From Conus ventricosus (lineage: Eukaryota > Mollusca > Gastropoda > Neogastropoda > Conidae): a stretch of 64,000 nucleotides of DNA. The position numbers and the translations under genes are program-made. The DNA lies in NCBI GenBank assembly GCA_018398815.1, contig CM031601.1:33847975-33911974 (forward strand), given 5' to 3'. The notes under the pieces were generated by a model. It had not been told where the DNA came from. It made no database searches and saw nothing but the letters and a program-made list of their open reading frames with translations. This document shows, in pieces, positions 16,607-53,429 of this stretch; position 1 is the first letter of the stretch, and every line of letters begins with the position of its first letter.

Positions 16607-16867
16607 CTATTTCAGAGGCACCAGCTTGATCAGCAGAATGCTGGTGGGGTCCACCAAGACGTTCATGGGGGAGGATGGCTTGAACACACCCATGTGTTTG
16701 CCCTCAAACACATCGGTCACATTATACCCACTGGGATTTTTCAGACCATAATCACCCAGCGTCACCGTGAAAGGGATCGGTGTTCCTTCGTCAAACTTGT
16801 TGAGGAAAGCAATGGCTGTGTTCCCCTGGGACAGAGGCTTGATCCACACCGAGATGGCATTGGGCAC
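16607..16867 (-). CDS. GLA/NAGA: GH27 gene exon 7: C-terminal beta-sandwich domain and stop
   Basis: After an acceptor (TTTCGGTGCAG at 16878-16868) the exon reads VPNAISVWIKPLSQGNTAIA and runs 86 residues to a TAG at 16609-16607. VWIKPLS aligns with VWERPLS of human alpha-galactosidase. TVTLGDYGL, GYNVTDVFEG, a proline-bounded V-P-S stretch and LLIKLVPL follow the order of the family's C-terminal antiparallel beta domain. It joins exon 6 in phase 0. Immediately upstream the exon's own first bases and acceptor are reiterated about 22 times, so which acceptor is used is uncertain. The copy at 16868 is the one next to non-repetitive coding sequence. Confidence 0.92.
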   Translation of the reverse strand: MPNAISVWIKPLSQGNTAIAFLNKFDEGTPIPFTVTLGDYGLKNPSGYNVTDVFEGKHMGVFKPSSPMNVLVDPTSILLIKLVPLK

Positions 16868-23444: not shown

Positions 23445-23642
23445 CTCGAACAGGCGGACAGCCTGGACTCCCAAAGGGTCCTGGTTGATGGCGATCACGT
23501 CTTTGTTTTTCAGCAGGTCCAGGGCTTCCTTGGAGATGGTGCGCAGGTCCACCGACATGAAGAGGGGAGCGGCAAACATGGCCCACATTCCAAACTGGGC
23601 TTTCTGCTGGTAGTAGCTTAGTCCAAAGTCCCCCACAACCAG
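23445..23642 (-). CDS. GLA/NAGA: GH27 gene exon 6
   Basis: The exon is 198 nt, the same length as human GLA exon 6, and phase 0 at both ends. The acceptor is TGTGTACAG at 23643 and the donor is GAG/GTACAG at 23444. It encodes [20 protein letters not shown], then [17 protein letters not shown] and [38 protein letters not shown] and INQDPLG are hallmarks of the last barrel strands of GH27 enzymes. Position 4 of the GNFGL motif is shifted to GDFGL, a mild change. It follows directly after the DPDM end of exon 5. Arrays abut it on both sides: the donor is multiplied downstream and a 31-nt array starts a few bases from the acceptor. Confidence 0.96.
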
Positions 23643-25359: not shown

Positions 25360-26992
25360 TAGTCTTTACGTTTAGAAAAGCGACGCGGCCGCTCCAAAAT
25401 GTTGCAATATTTGGAAAATCCGACATAGCCTGGCAGGTTATTGTACAAACTGCAAAATGTGTCTGAGTGCAACTAGGCCTTTTCTGTTCTGATCACGAAA
25501 AAGCCGGGCAGATCACTTTGTCACGGATGGAGTTATGGCCCTGTCCCCAAGTTGCGCATTTTCACCTTACTCGGCAAAGTGCCACTGTGTCGTTAACTGA
25601 GGTCAGATTCACGTGAAAATTGTGTCCTCGTGAAAAAGCCGAGGACACGCTACAGGTGAGTAAAATGCAAAGCCACAATGTTTGGTGTCAGTGGGTAAAA
25701 AACAACTCGCAAAAAAGGTTACTTTCTCCCTCAACACCACAACACCAAAGGATGCCGCGTATGACGTCACCTGAGCGTTGGCGAGCCATCGGCATGTTGG
25801 AGGCTGGAAACAGAATGCAAGACGTCGCTAGGGCGCTAAATGTGCACCGGTTGAACATTTATCATCTTGCAAATCGCCATCAAGCCACTGGGACTGTTCG
25901 TGATGCCCCCAGACCTGGTCGGCCACGCGTCCTCACTGCTCGCCAGGAGCGATATGTGGTGTGTAGCTTCAGGGCAAACCCTTTCCAAAGTGCCTCTTCA
26001 GTGGGACGACAGATTCATGGACCCGGCAACAGGGTAATTCGCCCCAGCATCATCCTGCAGCTTCTCAGACGCCACCAGCTGTACTGCCGCCGACCCTACC
26101 ATGGTCACTATCTGTCGCCACAGCATCGTGCTGCCCGGTTGAATTGGGTTCACAGGCACAGGAACACAAACTGGACAACTGTCGTGTTCAGCGACGAGGT
26201 TCGATTCTGTCTGGATCAGATTGACAGGCGTGTTCACGTGTATCGTCCTCGTGGCCAGCGCTTTGCTGGTCAGTACGTGCAGCAGCACAACCTGTGGGGC
26301 GGCCAGTCCATCATGATGTGGGGGGCAATGTGTGGCAACAGACTCATTGGACCAGTGTTCTTCAACCTGCAGCCAGGTCGTGGCGGTGGAGTCACTGCCC
26401 TTCGCTACATAGCACAGGTCCTGCGCCCTGTCGTAGTGCCCTTGTTTGCAAGACGCCGCCAATATGTTTTCCAGCAAGACAACGCCCCGGCCCACAGAGC
26501 ACAGGTCACACAAGCCTTCCTTCAGCAGAACAATGTCCAGATGATGGACTGGCCTGCTCTAAGTCCAGACTTGAACCCTATCGAACAGTTGTGGGCCTTC
26601 CTGAAACGCCGCATCAACGAGCAGCCCAACCGCCCTCACAATGCTGTGGCTCTGAGACGGGAGATCCAGCGTCAGTGGAACCAAGTCTCTCAGGCCTTTC
26701 TTGATCGACTTGTCAACTCCATGCCAAATCGGTGCAATCTCACCGTGATTGCTGGAGGTGGCCACATCCGATATTGAGGCCTTTGCGCGGGTGCCTGGAT
26801 CCCAGGGCGAAAACTCTTGAAAACTTTACAGTGACAATACGTGCTTAGTTTTATCTGAAAAGATCAAATTTCAATCAATGCTATGCAAAAAACCGCTTTG
26901 AAATATGTCTACTGTGAATGAAATGGTATCATATTAAAGTTTTCGTTGCAATTTGCCTCTTGATTTTGTCGCGTTTCTAACCGTAAAGATTA
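25360..26992 (+). mobile_element. Complete Tc1/mariner (DD34E) element inserted at TA
   Basis: The 1633-bp element is flanked by TA (25358-25359 and 26993-26994) within an array unit. Terminal inverted repeats of about 25 bp match with 3 mismatches: TAGTCTTTACGTTTAGAAAA at the left and, in reverse complement, TAATCTTTACGGTTAGAAAC at the right, both then GCGAC. It contains one uninterrupted transposase ORF. It sits in intron 5 of the GH27 gene in the antisense direction. Confidence 0.95.
25752..26777 (+). CDS. Tc1-family transposase, apparently intact
   Basis: From ATG 25752 (MPRMTSPERWRAIGMLEAG) the ORF is 341 residues, the usual Tc1 length. The same frame is open back to 25620 with an earlier ATG, but that extension does not resemble transposase. 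The N-terminus has paired helix-turn-helix DNA-binding regions (SPERWRAIGML, DVARALNV) and a GRPR linker motif. The catalytic triad is complete: Asp in VVFSDEVRF, Asp in FQQDNAPAHRA, and Glu in SPDLNPIEQLW, with 34 residues between the last two (DD34E). The frame contains no stop or frameshift. It cuts and pastes the element at TA sites in the nucleus. Confidence 0.95.
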   Translation: MPRMTSPERWRAIGMLEAGNRMQDVARALNVHRLNIYHLANRHQATGTVRDAPRPGRPRVLTARQERYVVCSFRANPFQSASSVGRQIHGPGNRVIRPSIILQLLRRHQLYCRRPYHGHYLSPQHRAARLNWVHRHRNTNWTTVVFSDEVRFCLDQIDRRVHVYRPRGQRFAGQYVQQHNLWGGQSIMMWGAMCGNRLIGPVFFNLQPGRGGGVTALRYIAQVLRPVVVPLFARRRQYVFQQDNAPAHRAQVTQAFLQQNNVQMMDWPALSPDLNPIEQLWAFLKRRINEQPNRPHNAVALRREIQRQWNQVSQAFLDRLVNSMPNRCNLTVIAGGGHIRY

Positions 26993-30744: not shown

Positions 30745-30906
30745 CATATCAGGGTCTGCCCAGCCCCCGGGGCCGGTGTAGGCACTGAAGTTGAGCTCAT
30801 TCTTCCCATAATAATCCACAATGGACAACACACTGCCCCAGGCATCGGTCACATCCTCAAAGTTGCGCCACATGTTACAGGTGTTGCGAATGGCATTGTA
30901 GTTGGA
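30745..30906 (-). CDS. GLA/NAGA: GH27 gene exon 5b (alternative copy, intact)
   Basis: 162 nt, identical in length to human GLA exon 5, phase 0 at both ends. The acceptor is TGCCTGGCAG/TCC and the donor ATG/GTAAGA. It encodes SNYNAIRNTCNMWRNFEDVT, then DAWGSVLSIVDYYG and TGPGGWADPDM. The Asp in WRNFEDV aligns with the catalytic acid/base Asp231 of human GLA, and the last Asp of DPDM with substrate-binding Asp266. About half of its 54 positions are shared with exon 5a. The CN-WRN--DV--W-SVLSI wording is closer to alpha-N-acetylgalactosaminidases. It is the last of the duplicated exons before exon 6. Confidence 0.95.
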
Positions 30907-31019
30907 CTGCCAGGCACCACAGAATGACACCATGGAAACAAGGTAGGTTAAAATCAAGTCCACAGAATGGGCTTCCCCTCTTACATGATGGGAAGTTGGC
31001 CGATGCAAACAATTTGGAC

Positions 31020-32190
31020 TGCTGCAGGGTAATGCCTCAGGTAATGCCAGCGCTCTGTGTTCAACAGGTTTTACAGTCACTGACAGGTAATGCTCTGTGT
31101 TCAACAGGTTTTACAGTCACTGACAGGTAATGCTCTGTGTTCCTGTTGCTCTGTGTTCAACAGGTTTTACAGTCACTGACAGGTAATGCTCTGGGTTCAA
31201 CAGGTTTTATAGTCACCGACAGGTAATGCTCTTTGTTCAACAGGTTTTACAGTCACTGACAGGTAATGCTCTGTGCTGAACAGGTTTTATAGTCACCGAC
31301 AGGTCATGCTCTGTGTTCAACAGGTTTTATAGTCACTGACAGGTAATGCTCTGTGTTCCAACAGGTTTTATAGTCACTGAAAGGTAATGCTCTGTGTTCA
31401 ACAGGTTTTATAGCCATCGACAGGTAATATTCAGTGTTGAACATGTTTTATAGTTACCGACAGGTAATGCTCTGTGTTCAACAGGTTTTATAGTCACTGA
31501 GAGGTAATGCTCTGTGTTCAACAGGTTTTATAGTCACTGACAGGTAATGCTCTGTGTTCAACAGGTTTTACAGTCACTGACAGGTAATGCTCTGTGTTCA
31601 ACAGGTTTTACAGTCACAGGTAATGCTCTGTGTTCAACAGGTTTTATAGTTACCGACAGGTAATGTTCTGTTTTGAACTGGTGTTACAGTCACTGACAGG
31701 TAATGTTCTTTGTTGAACGGGTTTCATAGTCACCGACAGGTAATATTCAGTGTTGAACATGTTTTATAGTTACCGACAGGTAATGCTCTGTGTTCAGCAG
31801 GTTTTATAGTCACTGACAGGTAATGCTCTGTGTTCAACAGGTTTTAGAGTCACTGACAGGTAATGCTCTGTGTTCAACAGGTTTTACAGTCACTGACAGG
31901 TAATGCTCTGTGTTCAACAGGTTCTATAGTCACTGACAGGTAATGCTCTGTGTTCAACAGGTTCTATAGTCACTGACAGGTAATGCTCTGTGTTCAACAG
32001 GTTCTACAGTCACTGACAGGTAATGCTCTGTGTTCAACAGGTTCTATAGTCACTGACAGGTAATGCTCTGTGTTCAACAGGTTCTATAGTCACTGACAGG
32101 TAATGCTCTGTGTTCAACAGGTTCTATAGTCACTGACAGGTAATGCTCTGTGTTCAACAGGTTTTATAGTCACTGACAGGTAATGCCAAG
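31020..32190. repeat. 40-nt minisatellite (ACAGGTAATGCTCTGTGTTC)
   Basis: About 29 units of AGGTAATGCTCTGTGTTCAA, CAGGTTTTATAGTCACTGAC, lying between exons 5a and 5b. On the plus strand each unit contains CAGGTAATG, but this is antisense to the gene. Confidence 0.94.
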
Positions 32191-32900
32191 CCTGCAGAAG
32201 AGCTCAAGGTTGAAAGAAGTTGCACCTTCCTTGTTCTCTGTGCATTCCACTTATCCAGCACCAGTGGAATTCTTTATTTTCAAATGTAATTTTCAAGTAA
32301 AACAAAAGGAAGACAGGGTCTTTTGGTGACAGGTAAATGTATCAGCTGAGATGCATTGGGCAGATGCACCAACAGTGTCAGGACCAGTCTGGTGTGAGAG
32401 GTAACAATTAAAGCCACCACTCAGTTCACATGAAAGACAGAACAAACAAGCAGTTCACAGTGAATGCCACCACCCAGTTCACATGAAAGACAAAAGAAAA
32501 AACACAGCAGTGAAGGCCACCACTCCATTCACATGAAAGACAAAAAAAATGGCTGACAGCGAGTGCCACCATCCAGTTCACATGACACAAAAACAAGAAA
32601 AAAAGCTACCAGTGAATGCCACCACCCAGTTCACATGACAGACAGAACAAAAAGACTGACTGGAACAATAGCAGACGTGAATGTCTTCAGTTGCAGACAT
32701 CAGCACATAAAAAGTGCATGTAAATATATGTATGTGTGCACATCAATTAGAGTGTACATGCAAGCACACATGTATGCAAGCACAGGTGTGTACAGGCAGG
32801 CAGGTATGCAGGCATATCGCACCTATGTGCAATGCACATACACACAGACTGCGGTAGATGAATGTTATCCAAAGCCAAGCAAGTAACAAAACGACCAGCC
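32191..32900. other. Sequence with a weak about 65-nt repeat
   Basis: About five degenerate copies of GCCACCACYCAGTTCACATG plus AAAGACA at about 32410-32660. Nothing else was recognised. Confidence 0.55.
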
Positions 32901-32904
32901 AACA

Positions 32905-34085
32905 GAAAATGCCAGGGGAAGATCACAGAAGACTGTTAGTATCATGTGAGGCCAATTAAACGTTTGATATCCAGGTAAAGATCACAGACGACTGTTAGTA
33001 TCATGTGAGGCCAATTAAACGTTTGATATCCAGGGAAAGATCACAGACTGTTAGTATCATGTGAGGCCAATTAAACGTTTGAAATCCAGGGAAAGATCAC
33101 AGACGACTGTTAGTATCATGTGAGGCCAATTAAATGTTTGATATCCAGGGAAAGATCACAGAAGACTGTTAGTATCATGTAAGGCAATTTTAAATGTTTG
33201 ATATCCAGGGAAAGATCACAGACGACTGTTAGTATCATGTAAGGCAATTTTAAATGTTTGATATCCAGGGAAAGATCACAGACGACTGTTAGTATCATGT
33301 GAGGCAAATTAAATGTTTGATATCCAGGGAAAGATCACAAAAGACTGTTAGTATCATGTAAGGCAATTTTAAATTTTAATATCCAGGGAAAGATCACAGA
33401 AGACTGTTAGTATCATGTAAGGCAATTTTAAATTTTTAATATCCAGGGAAAGATCACAGAAGACTGTTAGTATCATGTAAGGCAATTTTTAATATCCAGG
33501 GAAAGATCACAGAAGACTGTTAGTATCATGTGAGGCAAATTAAATGTTTGATATCCAGGCAAAGATCACAGAAGACTGTTAGTATCATGTAAGGACAATT
33601 TTAAATTTTTAATATCCAGGGAAAGATCACAGAAGACTTAGTATCATGTAAGGCAATTTTAAATTTTTAATATCCAGGGAAAGATCACAGACGACTGTTA
33701 GTATCATGTGAGGCAAATTAAATGTTTGATATCCAGGGAAAGATCACAGAAGAGTGTTAGTATCATGTAAGGCAATTTTAAATTTTTAATATCCAGGGAA
33801 AGATCACATAAGACTGTTAGTATCATGTAAGGCAATTTTTAATTTTTAATATCCAGGGAAAGATCACAGAAGACTGTCAGTATCATGTGAGGCCAATTCA
33901 ATGTCTGACATCTAGGGAAAGATCACAGAAGACTGTTAGTATCATGTGAGGCCAATTCAATGTCTGACATCTAGGGAAAGATCACAGAAGACTGTTAGTA
34001 TCATGTGAGGCCAATTCAATGTTTAATATCTAGGGAAAGATCACAGACGACTGTTAGCATCATGTGAGGCCAATTAAATGTTTAC
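32905..34085. repeat. About 60-nt minisatellite (GATCACAGAAGACTGTTAGT)
   Basis: About 20 units of GATCACAGAAGACTGTTAGT, ATCATGTAAGGCAATTTTAA, then TTTTTAATATCCAGGGAAA, with a CCAATTAAACG variant at both ends. Confidence 0.94.
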
Positions 34086-34189
34086 CATCTTCTTCTGGGA
34101 ATCAAAACCCTCTCTCCCTCCCACCTCCTCTTTCTCCCTTCCCCATCCCATCCCTCATGCACCCCCTAACCCCACCATCCACCTCCTCC

Positions 34190-34455
34190 CCTTTCTCTCT
34201 CTGGCCCTGCATCTGTCTCTCAGAGCAGTCTCTCTATTTCTGTGCTCTCCACCACCTTCACCTCCCCCTTCCTTCCTCCCCCATTACCCTTGTGGTCAGA
34301 GCAGTCTCTCTATTTCTGTGCTCTCCGCCACCTTCACCTCCCCCTTCCTTCCTCCCCCATTACCTTGTGGTCAGAGCAGTCTCTCTATTCTGTGCTCTCC
34401 ACCACCTTCACCTCCCCCTTCCTCCTCCCCCATTACCCTTGTGGTCCTCTCCAAC
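34190..34455. repeat. 76-nt pyrimidine-rich repeat, three copies, near the exon 5a donor
   Basis: Three units of CAGAGCAGTCTCTCTATTTC, TGTGCTCTCCACCACCTTCA, then CCTCCCCCTTCC. Copies differ by single C or T losses. They end about 25 bases from the exon 5a donor. Confidence 0.88.
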
Positions 34456-34479
34456 CCCTCCATTGGCACAGACACCTAC

Positions 34480-34639
34480 CATGTCAGGGTCATTGAACCC
34501 CCAGGGCCAGCCACTTCAATAAAACCGCCACAGTTGTCCCCCAGTAGTCAATGATCTGCACCACTTTGGCCCAACTGTCCTGCATGTCCTGGTAGTTGCG
34601 CCAAATGTTGCAGTATTGCCGGATGTCCGTGTAGTTGGG
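34480..34639 (-). CDS. GLA/NAGA: GH27 gene exon 5a (GLA-like copy, two 1-nt deficits)
   Basis: After a strong acceptor (CCCCTTTACAG/CCC) it reads PNYTDIRQYCNIWRNYQDMQ, then DSWAKVVQIIDYWG. PNYT-IRQYCN is the wording of human alpha-galactosidase exon 5, and it starts at the same residue (Pro214). The catalytic Asp is present in WRNYQDM. The exon is 160 nt where 162 is expected. The frame is lost once at the C5 run 34538-34542 and once at the C5 run 34498-34502. One more base at each would give 54 codons ending GPGG-x-NDPDM at the donor ATG/GTAGGT. Both breaks lie in homopolymers, so assembly error is likely, but a recently decayed exon is possible. Confidence 0.85.
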
Positions 34640-35522
34640 CTGTAAAGGGGCACACTCAGTGACATGCTGACTGCTTCTGTCAATTTTTGGTCACAGTGTG
34701 TGTGCGAGGCTATCAACATTAACACTCTTCAGGTTAAGAGCCAAAAATATGTTACTGATCTTTGTGTCTTACACTTTACGATTAGCAAACAACTAATACA
34801 GTGTCTTTCAGAGTAATCATATGCATATTTATCAATGAAGCTGATCAATATTACGAATATACTGTATTAGCTACACATATGCATCTTTATTAATGAAGCT
34901 GATCAATGCTATGAATTTTCTGCATTAGCTACACTATGAGACCTTTTTTCAGTGGTAACAAAATAGGTTCAAGTTTTGCACAAGAAGATTTAAAGCAATT
35001 AAACAAATCAATCACGCAAATGTTTCCTAAAACAGTAACAAAGAGTCTACATTGCTTGTATAATTCTTTTCCTTGGCTTTAAATCAATCTGCAAGAATTT
35101 TGAGAACCTTCCTCTCTATACAATATATCATGGATTGAAATAACTGCTAATACTATGCAGGTTTTTTTCATTTTATATTTGTTAAGCTCGTGATTCTTGG
35201 GCCAGAACGTGTAGGAAAGAAAGACAAGGCAAAGAGAGATGAAAAATGTTGGTCTTTGAACAGACTGGACAGCCAGATCCTCTTGTTCAGTGAGCAGATC
35301 TTTTCTCCTGTTAGGATCAGATGATTGAGATGACACTGACCTGCCAGCCAGACTCCATGTTGCCATGCCACTGTCCCGTGGGGCTTTCAGTCTAGTTGCC
35401 TTTTTGTATCAGGGATCATTTTCAATTGTTTTTTTGTTGTTTTTTTCAAGGGGTAGGTTGGAGGTGAGTGGGATTTGGCCCCTATTAAATGAACAGAACA
35501 ACCAGTTCTATGAGCTGTGATC

Positions 35523-35525
<3 letters not shown>
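34640..35525. other. Intron 4 unique sequence
   Basis: A two-copy repeat of about 65 nt (CATATGCATMTTTATYAATG, AAGCTGATCAAT) lies at about 34820-34915. No exon was recognised. Confidence 0.5.
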
Positions 35526-35850
<325 letters not shown>

Positions 35851-36594
35851 AACGGAAGAGGGAATGCATACCAATGCAGACCTATGTGTAAGTGCATATG
35901 CATAATTGACAATACCTAGAACAGCTGTCATCCTTATGTTCTTGCGATGGATTCACCTAAACCATTATAATTCTTAGTTGCATAGCATTTGTATGTGAAT
36001 GGTCATAAACTCTGTCTATATAAATAAATATATATTTGTTTGTCCCCATACCCACTTCCACAAAGCCCACATAACCCACTCTCCCGAGTCCTATCTGTTC
36101 TCATACATATTTTCTGCCCACATAGCGTGGTAATTTTTTAAGATGTAACTGAAAGTACTTCATCACTTTGTCCCTACAGGTACTTTCTGTCCCATATACA
36201 TCTTCTGTTCCCATAACTGTGTCTATGTAAGCACTTTCTATCCATGTAAAGTTCTACTGTCTATGTAAGCACTTTCTATCCAGTAACTACGTCTATGTAA
36301 GCACTTTCTATCCATGTAATACTGTCAGTCTATGTAAGCACTTTCTATCCAGATAACTACTGTCAGTCTATGTAAGCACTTCTGTCAACAAAAGTCCTTT
36401 CTGTCAATGTAAGCACTTTATCTCCCCACACATACTTTCAATCCATGAAAGTACTTCTGTCCATATGAATACTTTCTGTCCTACACATCTGTTATTCTGT
36501 CCTACACACCCGTTACTCTGTCCAACCATCAAGTCATGGCCACGGTTAGAAAGAAAGCAGGAAGTCTGACACACACACACAGAGCAAAGGGTGA
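35851..36594. other. Intron 4 sequence with a 30-nt degenerate repeat
   Basis: About 36180-36480 contains loose copies of GTCTATGTAAGCACTTTCTA plus TCCATGTAA. No exon was recognised. Confidence 0.5.
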
Positions 36595-36840
36595 GTGGAA
36601 AAACACAGGCATGTACACAAACCCAGTGAAACCTGTGTGGGCAAACACAGGCATGTACACAAACCAGCGAAACCTGTGTGGGCAAACACAGGCATGTACA
36701 CAAACCCAGTGAAACCTGTGTGGGCAAACACAGGCATGTACACAAACCCAGCGAAACCTGTGTGGGCAAACACAGGCATGTCACAACCAGTGAAACCTGT
36801 GTGGGCAAACTAGGCATGTACACAACCCAGTGAAACTGGA
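36595..36840. repeat. 42-nt minisatellite, six copies
   Basis: Units CACAGGCATGTACACAAACC, CAGTGAAACCTGTGTGGGCA, AA. The last unit has lost several bases. Confidence 0.9.
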
Positions 36841-36861
36841 ATGGGTGTGTGTGTGTGTGTG

Positions 36862-36863
36862 GT

Positions 36864-36905
<42 letters not shown>
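36862..36905. repeat. Poly-G tract, about 40 bp
   Basis: A nearly pure G run following a GT microsatellite. It reads as poly-C in the GH27 gene sense. Confidence 0.97.
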
Positions 36906-36906
<1 letters not shown>

Positions 36907-37069
36907 AGCACAGGCAAGAACAGAAAGACAGTGACACCTGTGAAAGGGCCAACAGAAGCCTGCACAGCAATCCAGTGAAAACCTGTCCATTATTCAATTC
37001 TGATAGCGAAGGGAATAAATCTTTGTATGGAAGAAAATTGTCTCTACCCCAGCTTGGTATTACCTACAT

Positions 37070-37560
37070 CATCACCTTCACCCCCTTGCTTGATACACCT
37101 GCATCATCACCTTCACCCTCTCTAACTAGCTTGACACCACCTGTATTATCACCTTCACCCCTAGCTTGACACCACCTGTATTATCTTCACCCCCTAGCTT
37201 GATACTACCTATATCATCACCTTCACCCCCTAGCTTGACACCACGTGTATTATCATCTTCACCCCTAGCTTGATACCACCTGCATCATCACCTTCACCCC
37301 TTGCTTGATACCACCTGTATCATCACCTTCACCCTCTCTAACTAGCTTGACACCACCTGTATTATCACCTTCACCCCCTAGCTTGACACCACATGTATTA
37401 TCACCTTCACCCCCTAGCTTGACACCACATGTATTACCATCTTCACCCCCTAGCTTGACACCACCTATATCATCACCTTCACCCCCTAGCTTGATACCAC
37501 CTGTATTAGCATCTTCACCCCCCCCCCCTCCCCTCCACCCCTAGCGTGATACCATCTGTA
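37070..37560. repeat. 36-nt minisatellite (TTGACACCACCTGTATTATC)
   Basis: About 13 units of CTAGCTTGACACCACCTGTA, TTATCACCTTCACCCC. The serine/proline-rich ORF over it is an artefact. Confidence 0.9.
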
Positions 37561-38344
37561 TGACTGAACATAATCTTCACCTTAAATTGATACCACTATA
37601 TCATCACCCTCATCCTAGTCACCTGTGTGACTATGATCATCACCTTCACCCCAGCTTGAGGATTAGCAGACCTCGTCATTGTGACAAGATTACTCAACTG
37701 AAATGGGCAGACTTATTTTGTACCATTAAACTCCAAGGGGTTTCCTGACAAAATGGTCTTCCAGGACACATGCTTATGGCAAATAGACTCTGGTCCAAAC
37801 AGCAGATACCCCTGCCTATCATTCACCTGCTTTCTCCCTTCCCTCCCACCCCACAACAGTGACACCAACCAGACACACACGGAATCTTCAGGCAGAAAGC
37901 ATTATGTGAAAATCTGACTGTCGTACTAAACAAAGCAGGGGTGTGCAAGGCAAAGCTTGAATACACAGCAATGTATGGTAGGCATGATGCAAGGGGTGGA
38001 AACTTCAAGGAGAATTTAAATGTAAAAAGAAAAAATCAATCTTTTCTGTGAGGAATCTGTTGCAAATGTCCTATCAGCTATCAACTCCTCTGGCAGTTTC
38101 TTTACCAAGTTAACTTGCTGGGGCATGAAGGATTTCAAACCAAACCATAAAGTAACCTGATTTAACATATGAACATAAGAGAAAACTTTGACATGCATAA
38201 CAAATGTTAAACAAATCCTTGACTACATGAAAAAAAATGTAAACACCACTGCAACATTTAGATTTTTACTTAAATCTCAACAGTGCTTGTTTGTGGGGAA
38301 AAAAAGTTACAAATGAAAAAGTACAGACCTTGGATGCAAATGCT
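37561..38344. other. Intron 4 unique sequence
   Basis: No exon, RNA or transposon was recognised. Confidence 0.45.
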
Positions 38345-39095
38345 TAGGAGTTAACCAAATTGAACTTGTTTACTGCTTAAGAGTTAACATTCTTTTTGCA
38401 CATATCAGAATACACTGAGGAGTTAACATTAGTTTTGTGCATACATGAATACATTTGGGAGTTAACATTAGTTTTGTGCATATAATATGAATACATCTGG
38501 GAGTCAACAGTTTTGTGCACATCAGATTACATTTAGAAGTTAACATTCATTTTGTGCATATGTGAGTACATCTGGGAGTTAGTTTTGTACATATCAGATT
38601 ACATTTAGAAGTTAACATTCATTTGTGCATATCTTCATACATTTGGGAGTTAATGGTTTTGTGCATATCAGAATACATTTAGGAGTTCACATTAGTTTTG
38701 TGCATGTCAGAATGCATTTAGTTCACATTAGTTTTGAGCAATTTTGGAGTTCACATTAGTTTTGTCCATATCAGAATACAGTTAGTTCACATTAGTTTTG
38801 TGTATATCAGATTACATTTAGAAGTTCACATTAGTTTTGTCCATATAAGAATACAGTTAGTTCACATTAGTTTTGTGTATATCAGATCACATTTAGGAGT
38901 TCACATTAGTTTTGTGCATATCAGATTACATTTGGGAGTTCACATTAGTTTTGTCCATATCAGAATACATTTAGTTCACATTAGTTTTGTGTAAATCAGA
39001 TTACATTTAGGAGTTCACATTAGGTTTGTACATATCAGAATACATTTAAGAGTTAATATTCATTTTGTGTGTATCAGAATACATTTGAGGTCCTC
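38345..39095. repeat. About 39-nt minisatellite (TTCACATTAGTTTTGTGCAT)
   Basis: About 18 units of GAGTTCACATTAGTTTTGTG, CATATCAGAATACATTTAG, with several truncated units. Confidence 0.92.
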
Positions 39096-39634
39096 CATAA
39101 AATGAAGCTTATGTCCAGCAGAATTCAAATGAGATTTTCAGAATGTACTCACAGACATTCACCAATGACATTGGCATCGAAATGTTAAAAAAAAAATAAT
39201 AAAAATTATAAATAATAGCTTCAAGTAAACAGGAGAGGGGAAGAGAAAAGGGAGGGGGGAGGAAGGTACAAGTAAGTGGACAAATGAACACCACAGGTGA
39301 AAGACAAGATAAAAACCAGATGAACAGCCAGAAAGGGCAGAGCAGGGCCATTTCATCTTGCTCACTGGAATCTTCCTGGCTAAGGCAAACCTCCTATGAA
39401 GATGATCTATTTACAGAAAAAAGGAAAAGAATAAATAGAAATCCTCTGCCTGTCATTCAATCTTCAATTCTCAATCCAATGACGTCAATCCCAATAGCGT
39501 TAATCGAAAAATCCATGCTATACTGTCATGAACAGGAACACTGAGGTAGGCATTACTGAGGTATCTCCCTTTTTAACTCAGTTCAAACAAACCAAATCAA
39601 ATCAAAAAACACATTTACTATCATAGGATCCTCA
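39096..39634. other. Intron 4 unique sequence
   Basis: No coding exon was recognised. Short ORFs on both strands lack known motifs. Confidence 0.45.
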
Positions 39635-40355
39635 CTTCTCAACCACTCTTCACAGTTCAACAACCAGACATAAATCATCAGACATATCCACTCTCACCCT
39701 ACCCTCACTTCTCAACCACTCTTTACAGTTTAACCTTACAGCACATCCACCACTCTTCACAACACAGACATCTCAAGTTACAGTCTTCATCCAAACCAGA
39801 CATTAACCTTACAGCACATCCACACACTCTTCACAACACAGACATCTCACAAGTTACAGTCTTCATCCAAACCAGACATTAACCTTACAGCACATCCACC
39901 ACTTTTCACAACACAGACATCTCACAAGTTACAGTCTTCATCCAAACCAGACATTAACCTTACAGCACATCCACCACTCTTCACAACACAGACATCTCAC
40001 AAGTTACAGTCTTCATCCAAACCAGACATTAACTTACAGCACATCCACACTTTCACACACAGACATCTCACAAGTTACAGTCTTCATCAAACAGACATTA
40101 ACTACAGCACATCACCATCTCACAAACAGACATCTCACAGTTACAGTCTTCATCCAAACCAGACATTAACCTTACTTACAGCACATCCACCACTTTTCAC
40201 AACACAGACATCTCACAAGTCACAGTCTTCATCCAAACCAGACATTAACCTTACTTACAGCACATCCACCACTCTTCACAACACAGACATCTTACAAGTT
40301 ACAGTCTTCATCCAAACCAGACATTAACCTTACAGCACATCCAGAGTCAACCCAG
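39635..40355. repeat. About 75-nt minisatellite with an indel-ridden patch
   Basis: About eight units of CTTACAGCACATCCACCACT, CTTCACAACACAGACATCTC, ACAAGTTACAGTCTTCATCC. At about 40030-40140 single bases are missing throughout adjacent units while the flanking units are clean, which looks like poor consensus. Confidence 0.9.
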
Positions 40356-40664
40356 CCTCACTCTTCAACAACATCTCAACAATAAAATCACGGCAGCATC
40401 AGGGCATCCTGTCTGTTCTTCACAAGCCGAGCGACTAATGAACTGGCACTAAATGCGTGTGGATATATATGCATACAAATAAATACACAGATAGGTAAAC
40501 AGACAGATATAGATGTGGATATATTGATGTACAGATAAAGATGTGGATATACTGATGAACAGATACTTCAGCCCAAACACACCCCTTTCTGACAAGGTGT
40601 ACGGACAAAACAGACATCATCCACTGCTTCAAATCCAGTGGCACAGGAGAACGAAACATACTTC

Positions 40665-41590
40665 AACGCTGTGCAGCAGTGACACAGAACGACCATACTT
40701 CAATGCTGTGCTGCAGTGACACACAACGACCCATACTTCAACGCAGTGCTGCAGTGACACACAACGACCCACACTTCAATGCTGTGCAGCAGTGACACAC
40801 AACAACCCATACTTCAACGCAGTGCTGCAGTGACACACAACGACCCATACTTCAACGCAGTGCTGCAGTGACACACAACGACCCATACTTCAATGCTGTG
40901 CAGCAGTGACACACAACGACCCATACTTCAACGCTGTGCAGCAGTGACACAGAACGACCCATACTTCAACGCTGTGCAGCAGTGACACACAACGACCCAT
41001 ACTTCAATGCTGTGCTGTAGTGACACATAATGACCCATACTTCAATGTTGTGCAGCAGTGACACAGAACGACCCATACTTCAACGCTGTGCAGCAGTGAC
41101 ACATAACGACCCATACTTCAATGCTGTGCAGCAGTGACACATAACACCCATACTTCAATGCTGTGCAGCAGTGACACACAACGACACATACTTCAACGCT
41201 GTGCAGCAGTGATACACAACGACCCATACTTCAATGCAGTGCTGCAGTGACACAGAACGACCCATACTTCAATGCAGTGCTGCAGTGACACAGAACGACC
41301 CATACTTCAATGCTGTGCTGCAGTGACACATAACGACCCATACTTCAACGCAGTTTTGCAGTGGCACACAACGACCCATACTTCAACGCAGTTTTGCAGT
41401 GACACACAACGACCCATACTTCAATGCAGTGCTGCAGTGACACATAACGACCCTTCCTTCAACGCAGTGCTGCAGTCACACACACACAGAACCACCCATA
41501 CTTCAACGTTGTGTTGCAGTGATACAGAACAACCCATACTTCAACGCTGTGCAACAGAGACAGCACAACCCATACTTCAACACTGTGCAG
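40665..41590. repeat. 38-nt minisatellite (ACGACCCATACTTCAATGCT)
   Basis: About 24 units of GACACACAACGACCCATACT, TCAATGCTGTGCAGCAGT. Confidence 0.94.
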
Positions 41591-41859
41591 AAAGGCTGAG
41601 CAGTGAGGGCCAGGCCTGGCTCCCTGTGAGGAAACATCCTACCCTGATAAACATCCTACCCTGATAAACATCCTACCCTGACAAAGTCATACCCTGACAA
41701 ATGACAAGTGTCTCACCAAACCACCTATCAACCTTCAGTGAGCTACATCCCGGCATAAGTACTTGTATCCCATGAAATGCCCTGTTATCTTTAAGAGTAC
41801 ACAATGCCCTTACGCAAGATCTTTTGTCCTACAAAATGTCCTGTTTTCTAATGACAGCC

Positions 41860-42880
41860 GTGTGCAGTGCCAAGCATATTCTCTAGGATAGCAAACCAAA
41901 CCCTTGCTAAAGACAGTACCTTGTGCAGAGCCCAGTATATTATCGATGATAGCAAATCAAACCATACCTTGCTAAAGACAGTATCTTGCGCAGTGCCCAG
42001 CGTATTCTCTATGATAGAAAACCATACTCTTGCTAAAGACCGAGTATCTTGTGCAGTGCCCAGTATATTCTCTAGGATAGCAAACCATACCCTTGCTAAA
42101 GACACAGTATCTTGTGCAGTGCCCAGTATATTCTCTATGATAGAAAACTATACCCTTGCTAAAGACAGTATCTTGTGCAGTGCCCACTATATTCTCTATG
42201 ATACTAAACCATGCCCTTGCTAAAGACAGTATCTTTTGCAATGCCCAGTATATTCTCTATAACAAATCATACCCTAGCTAAAGACAGTATCTTGTGCAGT
42301 GCCCAGTATATTCTCTAGGATAGTAAACCATACCCTTGCTAAGGACAGTATCTTTTGCAATGCCCAGCATATTCTCTATGATAGCAAACCATACCCTTGC
42401 TAAAGACAGTATCTTGTGCAGTGCCCAGTATATTCTCTATGGCAGCAAACCATACCCTTGCTAAAGACAGTATCTTGTGCAGTGCCCAGCTTACTCTCTC
42501 TGATAGTAAACCATACCCTTGTTAAAGACAGTATCTTGTGCAACGCCCAGCGTATTCTCTATAATAGTAAACCACACCCTTGCTAAAGACAGAGTACCTT
42601 GTGCAGTGCCCAGTATATTCTCTATGATAAAAAATCATACCCTAGCTAAAGACAGAGTATCTTGTGCAGTGCCCAGCTTATTCTCTATGATAGAAAACCA
42701 TACCCTTGCTAAAGACAGTATCTTGTGAAGTGCCCAGTATATTCTCTATGATAGTAAACCACACTCTTGCTAAAGACAGTATCTTGTGTAGTGCCCAGTC
42801 TATGATAGCAAACCATACCCTTGCTAAGTGCAGTACCCAGTATATTTTCCATAATAGCAAACCACACCCCTGCAAAAGGT
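41860..42880. repeat. About 60-nt minisatellite (CTTGTGCAGTGCCCAGTATA)
   Basis: About 17 units of CTTGTGCAGTGCCCAGTATA, TTCTCTATGATAGAAAACCA, TACCCTTGCTAAAGACAGTA. Flanking ORFs are repeat translations. Confidence 0.94.
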
Positions 42881-43858
42881 CAAGCTTTGACCTGTGCAGT
42901 GCACAAATAGCCAGTGAAAACAAACCTTCCCTTGACCGATGATATGGCCTGATATTGCTCTGGCAAATGTTTCCTTTCAATAAAATCAATTGCCCGTAGG
43001 ACTCACAACCAGTTTTGACCCATAGCAACTCCACCCCTCAACAGATGAAAGTAAAACAACTGTGTTGTAAAGTTACACCAGTCCTCAGTCCTGCTTCACA
43101 GTGGGAGTAGTACATGTGCAAACAGTCCTCAATCCTGGTTCACAGTGGGTGTAGTACATGTGCGAACAGTCCTCAATCCTAGTTCACAGTGGGTGTAGTA
43201 CATGTGCAAACACTCCTTCCTTAATCCTGGTTCATGGTGTAGTGTATGTGCAAACAGGTGATGGATCAGGATGGAAGGATGGGGAAGGGAGGGGGAAAGG
43301 TGGGAGGAGAAGGGGGAAACATGGTAGGGAGACGTGAGTCCAAGATGGGGACATCCACACTGACTGGTAGGTCTTTTCCTCTCTTCCCAACATGTTATCT
43401 TCAACAATTTGAAGTGGGTGCAATGAGTAAATCTGTCAGTATTTTGTTTTTAAATATACCTAAGCTCAGCATGAATCAGCAATACACAAGTATCTGAATT
43501 ACAGACTGTGACCTAGTTGTACTGGTATCTTCTGCACCACAGCCTCAGTGGTCTGATGTGAAGATGATAACGTACCATGCAGGACCAAACCTATTCCATG
43601 AAGTCTGCCTGGCAAGGTCAAACAACAGCTCTGTGACACAGGGAATTTCATTCCATGGAAACGCAACCTTTACAGCTTACCTTCTTCCCTACCTGGGGGG
43701 GCAGAAAGGGAACAGGGAAATATCAAACCTGAGACAAATTATTCTCTTCACAGACCAAAAATCTTCAACCTTCTTTTTGAGAATACCAATCACTTCAAGG
43801 AACAGGATGCTGTCAAAGACCAACATATCTGGACAGTGGTGTGGGAGGTTCGAATCAC
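42881..43858. other. Intron sequence between exons 4b and 5a
   Basis: About four copies of CAGTCCTCAATCCTGGTTCA, CAGTGGGTGTAGTACATGTG lie at 43080-43250. The remainder is unique, with no recognised exon other than 4b at its right edge. Confidence 0.5.
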
Positions 43859-43953
43859 CTGCTGCCCCTGGCCAGTAATGTAGGCAGGCCAGCTGCAGGA
43901 AAACAGCATGAGTCGTCCTGTGGCGTTCAGGAAGGACTCCATTACAGGATAGC
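43859..43953 (-). CDS. GLA/NAGA: GH27 gene exon 4b (NAGA-type specificity loop)
   Basis: 95 nt, entering in phase 1 (GTCCCAAG/GC TAT) and leaving in phase 0 (CAG/GTGATT), exactly as exon 4a does. It encodes (G)[20 protein letters not shown], then [19 protein letters not shown] is the wording of alpha-N-acetylgalactosaminidase. The Ser and Ala align with Ser188 and Ala191 of human NAGA, which contact the N-acetyl group. The N-glycosylation site NATG matches the conserved site of the family. It shares 19 of 32 residues with exon 4a. The AAG acceptor is unusual and weaker than that of 4a. A 38-nt array starts about 20 bases upstream of the acceptor. Confidence 0.93.
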
Positions 43954-43974
43954 CTTGGGACCCACAGCACAGGA

Positions 43975-45375
43975 CAAGGCACCACATCACATCATCCATC
44001 ACATCACATCATCCACATCATCACATTATCCACATTACATCATCGTCCACATCACACCACAACATTCACACATCATCCACCGCATCACATCATCCACCAC
44101 ATCACATCATCACCACCACATACAACAGTCCCATCACAAGACGCCACATCATCCACATCAAAGACAGTCCACCACAGAATTCACATCACAGTCAATCACA
44201 GGACACCACATCATCCACATCAAAGACAGTCCACTCCAGGACACCACATCAAGGACAGTCCATCACAGGACACCACATCATCCTCATCAAAGACAGTCCA
44301 CCACAGGACACCACATCAAAGACAGTCCATCACAGGACACCACATCAAAGACAGTCCACCACAGGACACCACATCATCCTCATCAAAGACAGTCCACCAC
44401 ATCATCCACATCAAAGGCAGTCCACCACAGGACACCACATCATCCACATCAAAGACAGTAGTCCACCACAGGACACCACATCATCCACATCAAAGGCAGT
44501 CCACCACAGGACACCACATCATCCACATCAAAGACAGTCACCACATCATCCACATCAAAGGCAGTCCACCACAAGACACCACATCAAAGACAGTCCACCA
44601 CAGGACACCACATCAAAGACAGTCCACCACAGGACACCACATCAAAGACAGTCCATAACAGGACATCACATCATCCACATCAAAGACAGTCCACCACAGT
44701 CCACCACATCATCCACATCAAGAGTCCATAACAGGACATCACATCATCCACATCAAAAACAGTCCACCACAGGACACCACATCAAAGACAGTCCACAACA
44801 GGACACCACATCACCCACATCAAAGACAGTCCACCACAGGACACCACATCATCCTCATCAAAAACAGTCCCACAGCACCACTCAAAGACAGTCCACCACA
44901 GGACACCACATCATCCACATCAAAGACAGTCCACCACAGGACACCACATCATCCACATCAAAAACAGTCCACCACAGGACACCACATCAAAGACAGTCCA
45001 CCACAGGACACCACATCATCGACAGTCCACCACAGGACACCACATCAAAGACAGTCCACCAAGGACACCACATCATCCTCATCAAGACAGTCCACCACAT
45101 CATCCTCATCAAAGACAGTCCACCACAGGACACCACATCAAGGACAGTCCATCACAGGACACCACATCATCCTCATCAAAGACAGTCCACCACAGGACAC
45201 TACATCATCCTCATCAAAGACAGTCCACCACAGGACACCACATCATCCTCATCAAAGACAGTCCATCACAGGACACCACATCATCCTCATCAAAGACAGT
45301 CCACCACAGGACACCACATCATCCTCATCAAAGACAGTCCATCACAGGACACCACATCATCCACATCAAAGACAG
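43975..45375. repeat. About 38-nt minisatellite between exons 4a and 4b
   Basis: About 38 units of AAAGACAGTCCACCACAGGA, CACCACATCATCCACATC, with 26-nt units lacking the ATCATCCAC part. The array begins beside the exon 4b acceptor and fills most of the intron between the two exon-4 copies. The plus-strand His-rich ORF is an artefact. Confidence 0.93.
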
Positions 45376-45766
45376 TCTAGTCAACCCAGGGCTGTGAGCA
45401 CAGGTCTTAACCCCTGCCTCCACTCACTTGCTCAGAGCAGGAGACTGGCAATGGCTGCTGGTGGCAGACTGGATGATTTTTTATGTGTAAGATAAAGATG
45501 ACGAAATCACAGACGTACAATCACCTGATGCAGTCACCTAGACAGTTAACAGTTTCCTCTTCAGCATTCCATTCGGCCCCACCTCTCCCCCCTGCACACA
45601 GGCTTGTAGACACACAACACCCACACACTGTTCTACCACTGTGTTTCAGGACAGTGGGTTCTGTGTGTGAGTCAGGGTGTGCATGTGTAGGTGCAGAGGA
45701 TGTTGGAGCACTTTGTGTGGGTACAGGATGCCCTGATACTGCCTCAGTGTAGCTAAACAATACAAC
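45376..45766. other. Short unique intron sequence next to the exon 4a donor
   Basis: Contains TGTGTGAG/GTGTAG-rich simple sequence. No further exon was recognised. Confidence 0.45.
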
Positions 45767-45861
45767 CTTGACTCCATGCACGTGTTCATAGAGCGGCCAT
45801 TCACACGAGAACAACATGGGGTGGCCCGTCTTGTTGAGAAAAGACTGCATGATGGGATAGC
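45767..45861 (-). CDS. GLA/NAGA: GH27 gene exon 4a (GLA-type specificity loop)
   Basis: 95 nt (human GLA: 92), entering in phase 1 (TTGTCACAG/GC TAT) and leaving in phase 0 (CAAG/GTTGTA), the same positions as human exon 4. It encodes (G)YPIMQSFLNKTGHPMLFSCE, then WPLYEHVHGVK. FSCEWPLY matches alpha-galactosidase A. Its Glu and Leu align with Glu203 and Leu206, which set galactose specificity in the human enzyme. The N-glycosylation site NKTG is conserved. It is the first of the two exon-4 copies in transcription order. The donor is weak at +3/+4 (GTTG). Confidence 0.96.
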
Positions 45862-46609: not shown

Positions 46610-46784
46610 CAATATGCATGTCCTTGGCATCCGAGTTACAGCCATCGAATTTCAACATGTCCACATCCCACTCAGCAAACGTCTTGGCATCCAGTTCCAT
46701 GTAGAACTCTGACCCCGGGAACTTGGCACACGTCTCCGATCCAAAGTCTTCATAGATTCCCAGCTTCAGACCCCGTGCATGCAT
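46610..46784 (-). CDS. GLA/NAGA: GH27 gene exon 3 (catalytic nucleophile)
   Basis: 175 nt (human 178), phase 0 at the acceptor (CATACTCAG/ATG) and phase 1 at the donor (ATTG/GTAAGT). It encodes [20 protein letters not shown], then [20 protein letters not shown] and [42 protein letters not shown] are diagnostic of GH27. The Asp of KFDGC aligns with the nucleophile Asp170 of human GLA, and the cysteines in ETCA and DGC correspond to the Cys142-Cys172 disulfide. The minisatellite of intron 2 abuts the acceptor directly. Confidence 0.97.
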
Positions 46785-51526: not shown

Positions 51527-51701
51527 ATAGTCAGCCAGAGCTTTGATGCCACTGGGGAAGCGCTGAGGATCGGGGACCAGTCTGCCAGCAGGGTCTCTCT
51601 GCTTGGCCAGCCAGCAGTCGTCAATGTTGATGTACTCATAGCCCACGTCCTTTAGGCCCAGTTCCACCACCCTGTCTGCCATGGTCTTGTACAGCTTCTC
51701 A
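51527..51701 (-). CDS. GLA/NAGA: GH27 gene exon 2 (substrate-binding IDDCW)
   Basis: 175 nt, the same as human GLA exon 2, entering in phase 2 (TGTGCACAG/T GAG) and leaving in phase 0 (GACTAT/GTGAGA). It encodes [20 protein letters not shown], then [20 protein letters not shown] and [26 protein letters not shown] holds the two aspartates that bind the sugar (Asp92, Asp93 in human GLA). QRDP-GRL--DP-RFP-GI--LADY is family-wide. The codon split at the start predicts exon 1 ends with two bases of a serine codon. Exon 1 was not found between here and 64000. Confidence 0.97.
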
Positions 51702-51985
51702 CTGTGCACACATTGTTAGTCATGTTACACCAAAATGTCCTCTGTACAATACACCACCACCCTGTCTGCCATGGCCTTGTACAGCTTCTCACTGTACACA
51801 CATTGTTAGTAATGTTACACCAAAATGTCCTCTGTACAATACACCACCATCCTGTCTACCATGGTCTTGTACAGCTTCTCACTGTACACACATTGTTAGT
51901 AATGTTACACCAAAATGTCCTCTGTACAATATACCACCATCCTGTTTGCCATGTTCCTGTACAGCCTTTCACTGTACAAACTGTC
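51702..51985 (-). repeat. 90-nt repeat reiterating the exon 2 acceptor and exon start
   Basis: Four copies at a 90-nt period (acceptor positions 51701, 51791, 51881, 51971). Each repeats, in the gene sense, a TGTACAG acceptor followed by TGAGAAGCTGTACAAGRCCA, then TGGCAGACAGGGTGGTGG, i.e. the first 40 or so bases of exon 2. Only the innermost copy continues into full coding sequence. Similarity decays outward (GAAAGGCTGTACAGGAACAT in the fourth). Confidence 0.9.
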
Positions 51986-52700: not shown

Positions 52701-53429
52701 CATATGCATATGTTATGTGTACATCTACAACCTCTTGGGTGATGTGTTGGTTAAAACCTGCACAAACAAAAGTGAGGATAATTAATGTATGGACATTTCA
52801 GCAGACAATAATTTATCTTGAACAATAACTGACTTTTTTTCGAAGATCGATAAATATGACTAACAAAGAAAAGAACAGGACACAAATACACAAGTACATC
52901 TTAATGAAATCTAAAAAATGAAACATCAAACTCATTCACAATCTGCCACATCTGTACAAAAACCAAAATGTGTTGTAAAATATATATCACAGTCACTCAG
53001 TGACATCACCAGTGTGGACAAATGCGCCAAAAGACATGGCATGGCAAGTAGAATACACAAAAACAAAAAAACATCAGACTATCTTCTCACTGCAACAGGT
53101 GGTACAATGAAAGGTAGAGATGAGGAAACTGCAAGTAGACAAGGCAACAAAAGGAGCAAGGAAAAAGGGGGGGGGGGAGGGGAAGGGGGGGGAGGGGCTG
53201 ACCAACGGGATCTCTGACTACTCTTTTTCTGACACTGGTTGTATATATCATTCTTTTTCTTTCTTTTTGTCTTTTTCATTGTCACTGATGCAGCTGTCGG
53301 AATGTCATCGTCTGACTCGAAGCTCCCATGACAACCAGCCATTGTGTCCTCATGGCCTGTCCAGCGGGGGAATGAGCACACATACCGTCTCATGAGACCG
53401 TTCATGATAACCAGGCACATGGCAGTTCA
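52701..53429. other. Intron 1 unique sequence
   Basis: Includes a G-rich stretch at 53168-53198. No exon with signal-peptide or PMGW character was recognised. Confidence 0.45.

Follow-up and report, generated by a model that had tools for sequence, protein, structure and literature searches.

The closest described counterparts of the gene analyzed here are human GLA and NAGA, two enzymes of glycosidase family GH27 that are encoded by the Fabry and Schindler/Kanzaki disease genes. According to PMC8791529 and PMC7918333, GLA (alpha-galactosidase) excludes N-acetylgalactosamine (GalNAc) by means of Glu203 and Leu206, whereas NAGA (alpha-N-acetylgalactosaminidase) has Ser188 and Ala191; these positions agree with those given in an earlier, sequence-only reading of the stretch of DNA studied here. 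That stretch comprises 64,000 nucleotides from the gastropod Conus ventricosus (contig CM031601.1, designated C7; C7:33847975-33911974 of a 3.52 Gb genome) and is referred to as the “window”. It carries a gene of the same family with the same two specificity positions. Humans have two whole genes, whereas the window gene has two versions of one exon within a single gene. An exchange of the two specificities is reportedly the subject of Tomasic 2010.

Exon exchange that alters the specificity of an enzyme is already known from two other systems, COQ-2 and CYP4F3. In worms, annelids and molluscs, exons 6a and 6e of COQ-2 are mutually exclusive, and swapping of this internal exon switches the substrate; such cases are called rare, CYP4F3 and few others being named (PMC7434440). 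As in the window gene, one internal exon is exchanged and the core of the enzyme is rebuilt (PMC7434440). COQ-2 is an unrelated enzyme, however, and was tested by exon removal in C. elegans (PMC7434440), whereas the window gene is known from sequence. Exon choice in CYP4F3 (Christmas 1999, 2001, as cited in PMC7434440) likewise sets substrate preference by alternative splicing, in this case for a cytochrome P450, whereas the window gene encodes a glycosidase for which humans have a parallel two-gene solution. The sequence-only reading had been aware of no described gene of this kind. Among the papers listed in searches of open-licence PMC full text (subscription papers lie outside this scope), none deals with alternative exons of GH27 genes and none discussing such isoforms was found; in databases, such isoforms are already present in the annotation.

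Layout of the gene and the two copies of exon 4

The GH27 gene is on the minus strand of the window and spans 35 kb. Exons 2 to 7 were located in the order 2, 3, 4a-4b-5a-5b, 6, 7, with exons 4 and 5 both doubled. All eight exons found have AG acceptors, and all except exon 7, which ends in a stop codon, have GT donors. The features, in window coordinates, are as follows.

51527..51701, minus strand: exon 2 (EKLY..ALADY), 175 nt, shared; tblastn 2e-19 versus human GLA; acceptor gcacag, donor GTGAGA
46610..46784, minus strand: exon 3, 175 nt, shared, with the KFDGC motif; tblastn 3e-18 versus human GLA; donor GTAAGT
45767..45861, minus strand: exon 4a, alpha-galactosidase type, SCEWPLY (Glu/Leu); groups with Glu-type exon 4s in the tree
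44114..45377, no strand assigned: minisatellite occupying most of the 4a-4b intron
43859..43953, minus strand: exon 4b, NAGA type, SCSWPAY (Ser/Ala); in the tree with Haliotis rufescens X1, H. rubra and stand-alone NAGA exon 4s
34480..34639, minus strand: exon 5a, assembled length 160 nt, its frame interrupted by two one-base shifts within runs of G; by path, Babylonia exon 5 is its nearest row
30745..30906, minus strand: exon 5b, 162 nt with an open frame; in a tree group with exon 5 of Pomacea and Littorina (95/91)
23445..23642, minus strand: exon 6, 198 nt, shared; tblastn 4e-19 versus human GLA; splice sites present
16607..16867, minus strand: coding part of exon 7, shared, ending in a TAG stop and encoding the C-terminal beta domain; tblastn 4e-4 (GLA) and 1e-4 (NAGA); Pfam PF17450 in the spliced model

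Exons 4a and 4b are 95 nt apiece, are flanked by AG and GT and have identical phases. Exon 4a translates as YPIMQSFLNKTGHPMLFSCEWPLYEHVHGVK, and 19 of its 32 residues are common to 4b. The sequence-only reading had described this pair, and its coordinates, length, equal phases and residue count were all reproduced, as was the contrast, read from the translations, between Glu/Leu in 4a (SCEWPLY) and Ser/Ala in 4b (SCSWPAY). By alignment to 1r46, Glu/Leu of 4a occupy human positions 203/206. Ser/Ala of 4b occupy positions 188/191, and SCSWPAY is also found in the NAGA structure 1ktb (aligned with the 4a form as query). The likeness of the two exons is not due to chance, because tblastn with one copy as the query recovers the other at 1.4e-10 and because 55 of 95 bases agree, compared with 42 for the next best 95-mer on either strand of the window (mean 23.6, standard deviation 4.2). 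Differences fall at 10 first, 9 second and 21 third codon positions (of 31), and 13 codons differ silently, a pattern that would be as expected for two copies under selection at the protein level.

At its 3' end exon 3 leaves one base of a codon, exon 5 begins with a complete codon, and either exon 4 fits between them. The messages 2-3-4a-5b-6-7 and 2-3-4b-5b-6-7 are both open to the stop codon and encode 354 residues each. When 4a and 4b are joined in one splice, a stop is reached at codon 151 of 386; when both are omitted, the stop is at codon 126 of 323. Since the use of both or neither shifts the frame, only messages with one of the two encode the enzyme. Exon 4 thus has the anatomy of mutually exclusive exons, namely adjacent homologous exons of the same length and phase, with single use enforced by the frame. 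Because the length of 5b is divisible by three, exon 5 has no frame guard of this kind. Three tested messages through 5a halt at codon 197.

PF16499 (Melibiase_2) was matched by both forms, with E values of 2.7e-114 (4a) and 1.2e-114 (4b), over profile positions 28-284 of 284; positions 1-27 are unmatched because exon 1 is missing. Catalytic Asp motifs are present as KFDGC in exon 3 and as WRNxxDxxD in both 5a and 5b. The roles of these Asp residues, including that of the nucleophile in KFDGC, are those of D170 and D231 in human GLA.

The best explanation is that a single gastropod gene would encode a GH27 glycosidase of the lysosomal type, in which splicing would swap the piece of the barrel that bears both specificity residues. 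Exon 4a would supply an alpha-galactosidase pocket (Glu/Leu) and 4b an alpha-N-acetylgalactosaminidase pocket (Ser/Ala), with exons 2, 3, 6 and 7 common to both forms, the second catalytic Asp motif kept in 5a and 5b, and one exon 4 allowed by the frame in each coding message. Exon 5 would be selected together with exon 4, giving an outer pair (4a with 5b) or an inner pair (4b with 5a), as is mostly the case in relatives. The probability of a spliced exchange of the specificity exon in one gene is estimated to be about 0.7. Both messages are probably produced in this animal, and the residues suggest that the exchange alters the preferred substrate. By the human residue rule, the 4a form is predicted to be an alpha-galactosidase and the 4b form an alpha-N-acetylgalactosaminidase.

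The intron between 4a and 4b was also examined. A 9-mer, GTCCTGTGG (sense strand), occurs in 18 copies in its minisatellite (44114-45377) and is complementary to 4b and to none of six other exons (5a left out). An RNA docking array in this intron was rejected as a candidate; the energy of the duplex between 4b and the array is ordinary relative to shuffled exons (z = -0.86, with 61 of 300 shuffles equally low; for exon 3, z is -1.6). At the start of the located gene, a 90-bp tandem repeat (51664-51978, 3.5 copies) covers the exon 2 acceptor and first codons, and its upstream copies could be decoy acceptors. The intron between 5b and 6 contains a 385-amino-acid open frame on the plus strand (25620-26777), which resembles a Tc1/mariner-type transposase. 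Open frames on the minus strand upstream of exon 2 (60115-62376) resemble the reverse transcriptase of a long interspersed nuclear element (LINE).

Isoforms and exon pairing in relatives

Protein searches provided the best 120 of 7478 matches (8000 candidates scored), of 1639 (1670) and of 5752 (8000), for 198 proteins altogether. Among the matches listed, the best protein is 74% identical to the product of the window gene, or 79% identical over the columns of the alignment from which exons 4 and 5 were removed. Isoforms X1 and X2 of Haliotis rufescens differ in exon 4 alone (SCSWPAY versus SCEWPGY), as do X2 and X3 of Patella vulgata (SCEWPLY versus SCEWPVY). In Biomphalaria glabrata, P0010 (SCEWPLY, 5b) and P0011 (LCQWPGY, 5a), the A0A2C9JDJ3 / X3 pair, stem from different sources and differ at one residue outside exons 4 and 5. 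Isoform pairs of the exon-4 type were confirmed in three of the four pairs aligned, the exception being Arion. The forms of these orthologues differ as is predicted for the window gene; they are database entries only, their specificity residues vary by lineage, and the Patella pair is apparently a separate doubling. NCBI isoforms are usually backed by RNA sequencing. The four contigs that encode P0012, P0018 and P0020 (all 4a-5b) and P0016 (4b-5a) are most likely transcripts, because in each of them a multi-exon coding region, complete or almost so, fits within 1.2-2.2 kb.

The X1 model of Biomphalaria pfeifferi contains all four exons in the order 4a-4b-5a-5b, as in the window. The comparison with related molluscs to which the sequence-only reading had pointed is thereby favorable at the level of proteins and gene models, both for the isoform pairs and for this exon order. 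The recurring order and the isoform pairs, which resemble one gene, speak against an interleaving of two tandem paralogous genes by the assembler. The region is rich in minisatellites, tandem paralogues adjoin the gene and exon 1 is missing, all of which would suit such a misassembly. In the window, however, exons 2, 3, 6 and 7 were each found in full just once (fragments of exon 2 repeat upstream), and N runs are absent from the stretches read, and we regard misassembly as very improbable.

Pairing of exons 4 and 5 was counted in 18 rows taken as heterobranch-type with a single exon 5 (P0002, P0006, P0009 and P0121 excluded). Eight are 4a-5b, nine are 4b-5a, one is 4a-5a (Aplysia X2) and none is 4b-5b. 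Fisher's test gives 0.0004, which should not be read as a true probability since the rows are related. Among caenogastropods, the 4a-5b form is seen in P0005 of Littorina and P0007 of Pomacea, and no caenogastropod protein with 4b is among the matches listed. The 4b-5b message is open in this genome, yet is present in no relative examined. From these pairings, the products expected of the window gene would be 4a-5b and, less surely, 4b-5a; the latter is barred if the frameshifts in 5a are real. In Littorina saxatilis, P0001, P0005 and P0008 have a common first half but do not use the same copies of exons 5, 6 and 7, a hint that the 3' half was doubled in tandem.

The sequence-only reading had proposed that both enzymes arise from one locus by choice of 4a or 4b. 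What stands is one locus with two specificity exons, together with orthologue isoforms that differ at the same place (Glu/Gly versus Ser/Ala in Haliotis rufescens); what has to be amended is that exon 5 is also doubled and that the second form varies among lineages. A wider proposition is that gastropods solved the GLA/NAGA split by splicing, and we put it at only slightly better than even. Under it, abalones, caenogastropods and heterobranchs would have the gene in common, with a Glu-type and a non-Glu exon 4, nested as 4a[4b..5a]5b in the latter two groups. The outer and inner pairs would then differ in substrate preference, the second preference being free to change by lineage, with Ser/Ala in the window gene and Haliotis and Gln/Gly in heterobranchs.

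Evidence against exon exchange, and the alternatives

A number of observations weigh against exchange of a specificity exon in this gene, and they begin with the gene models. P0056, classed as 4b by likeness, carries Glu. The sole Babylonia model of this gene is 4a-5a, contrary to the pairing. B. pfeifferi X1 includes both 4a and 4b, with five extra residues between them, and P0002, P0006, P0009 and P0121 each contain both exon 5s; unless they are annotation artefacts, models with both copies argue against strict exclusion. The Arion vulgaris pair P0017/P0023 (4a-5b and 4b-5a) differs over its full length and probably represents two genes, into which two splice forms may have been split.

The second form itself is also variable, with Gln/Gly in heterobranchs, and in Patella both forms are Glu-type (Glu/Leu and Glu/Val). 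A switch between galactose and GalNAc therefore cannot be assumed for all of these genes. The same absence of Ser/Ala from the second form in heterobranchs (Gln/Gly) and Patella (Glu/Val) is what would be seen if 4a and 4b were alternatively chosen with no change in chemistry, the difference being one of tuning, for example of stability or of preference for glycolipid versus glycoprotein. We consider such tuning unlikely, given that the pairs in the window and in Haliotis rufescens set Glu/Leu or Glu/Gly against Ser/Ala, the residues that decide the fit of the C-2 substituent in the human enzymes according to PMC8791529 and PMC7918333.

The origin of 4b was considered together with the other GH27 genes. 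Matches in the genome were grouped by us into six further loci, B, C and D on C7 and E, F and G on C8, none of which showed more than a single exon 4 and a single exon 5.

C7:33919308-34040853, plus strand: loci B, C and D, a tandem cluster lying head-to-head with the window gene, on its upstream side
C8 53.60-53.62 Mb: locus F, SCSWPAY
C8 80.195-80.211 Mb: locus E, SCSWPTY
C8 50.16-50.18 Mb: locus G, broken

The exon 4 of B and that of D have neither the GLA nor the NAGA motif, and exon 4 of locus C was not found in the genome searches. Among the exon 4s that were found, the Glu type is confined to the window locus. Whether the genome has a separate NAGA gene had been raised by the sequence-only reading, and locus F is a separate gene of the NAGA type; in the tree made without exons 4 and 5, it groups with NAGA-type proteins of Babylonia, Nucella, Littorina and Pomacea. 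Given this separate SCSWPAY gene and five more GH27 loci, the window locus is not the animal's sole source of NAGA-type enzyme. Exons of E and G are broken mostly by apparent single-base homopolymer changes (judged by eye), which suggests residual assembly errors; locus G may be a pseudogene.

The gene tree was a quick tree of 56 rows with exons 4 and 5 removed and loci E and G left out, supported by the Shimodaira-Hasegawa-like approximate likelihood ratio test (SH-aLRT) only, with no bootstrap. In it, the window gene pairs with Babylonia as its sister (SH-aLRT 95) and next with Littorina (98), within a 35-row group (98) that also includes B, C and D and the Haliotis, Patella and Biomphalaria/heterobranch genes with isoforms. 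This placement suggests that the animal is a caenogastropod. Human rows have long branches and their placement is unsure. For the exon-4 tree, the two specificity positions were masked and 31 of 35 rows of our choosing were used, human GLA, human NAGA, Conus locus D and Pomacea being dropped for their long branches. Fourteen Glu-type rows separate from 17 others at 97/91, with one change of Glu state; a similar split (87/85) is obtained from all 35 rows with the specificity columns kept. The 17 non-Glu rows include 4b of the window, Haliotis and heterobranchs as well as exon 4 from stand-alone NAGA genes. In the unmasked tree, both Patella exon 4s are of the Glu type and form a sister pair (87/91), and their doubling looks separate. 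In the exon-5 tree, 5b-type rows come together at 53/86, too weak for dating the doubling of exon 5.

In the masked tree, 4b of the window and Haliotis is nearer to stand-alone NAGA exon 4 than to heterobranch 4b, a further point against the proposed history, and a common origin of 4b is therefore not established. Instead of arising from the doubling of the gene's own exon 4, 4b might have been acquired by conversion or exon shuffling, with a separate NAGA gene as the source and perhaps on more than one occasion. Such capture would account for the grouping of 4b with stand-alone NAGA exon 4s while the remaining gene does not group with them, and for heterobranch 4b forming a subgroup apart from 4b of the window and Haliotis. 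The same pattern is expected, however, from a 4b that retained an earlier Ser/Ala state while the change took place in 4a, and 30 columns cannot discriminate between the two; capture is considered less likely than not.

The last points against exon exchange concern the state of the locus. A hidden Markov model (HMM) of 153 exon-1 segments was run over 162 kb, including 110 kb upstream, and detected no minus-strand exon 1; its matches with E below 1 are in genes B and C only, on the plus strand. A search of the genome with the full-length Babylonia orthologue gave 45 matches, 44 at the seven loci and one weak match at C6 (E 0.37), and its exon-1 matches are at loci B to G only. An N-terminal exon resembling LDNGLAxTPPMGWLSWERF was thus not found at the window gene. 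GWLSWE within a repeat at 53323-53340 was rejected as exon 1, as it is without the LDNGLAxTPP part and is unlisted by the exon-1 HMM. Either the assembly has dropped exon 1 or the gene itself is truncated. Exon 5a, moreover, holds its two frameshifts as assembled. In its assembled state, the locus may be dead or incomplete.

It could be, then, that the window locus is a decaying copy that makes no enzyme, even though relatives use the two-exon design. The missing exon 1, the frameshifts in 5a and the presence of six other GH27 loci would fit decay, and, with the best listed protein at 74% identity, no transcript of a near relative is among the matches listed. Against this, seven of the eight located exons have splice sites and are intact, both 2-3-4a-5b-6-7 and 2-3-4b-5b-6-7 are open, and the locus has the sole Glu-type exon 4 among the exon 4s found. 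The frameshifts in 5a may well be sequencing errors, because loci E and G show similar breaks, mostly in run length (by eye). Decay of this copy is accordingly considered rather unlikely, and exchange of a specificity exon by splicing remains the preferred reading.

Splicing and gene duplication in GH27

In human GLA and NAGA, the two residues responsible for specificity are known, and humans have a gene for each enzyme; a one-gene answer is apparently present in several gastropod lineages. Isoforms of GH27 that differ in exon 4 sit in databases, unremarked in the papers searched. The GH27 exon pair would provide a clean test of splicing and gene duplication replacing each other.

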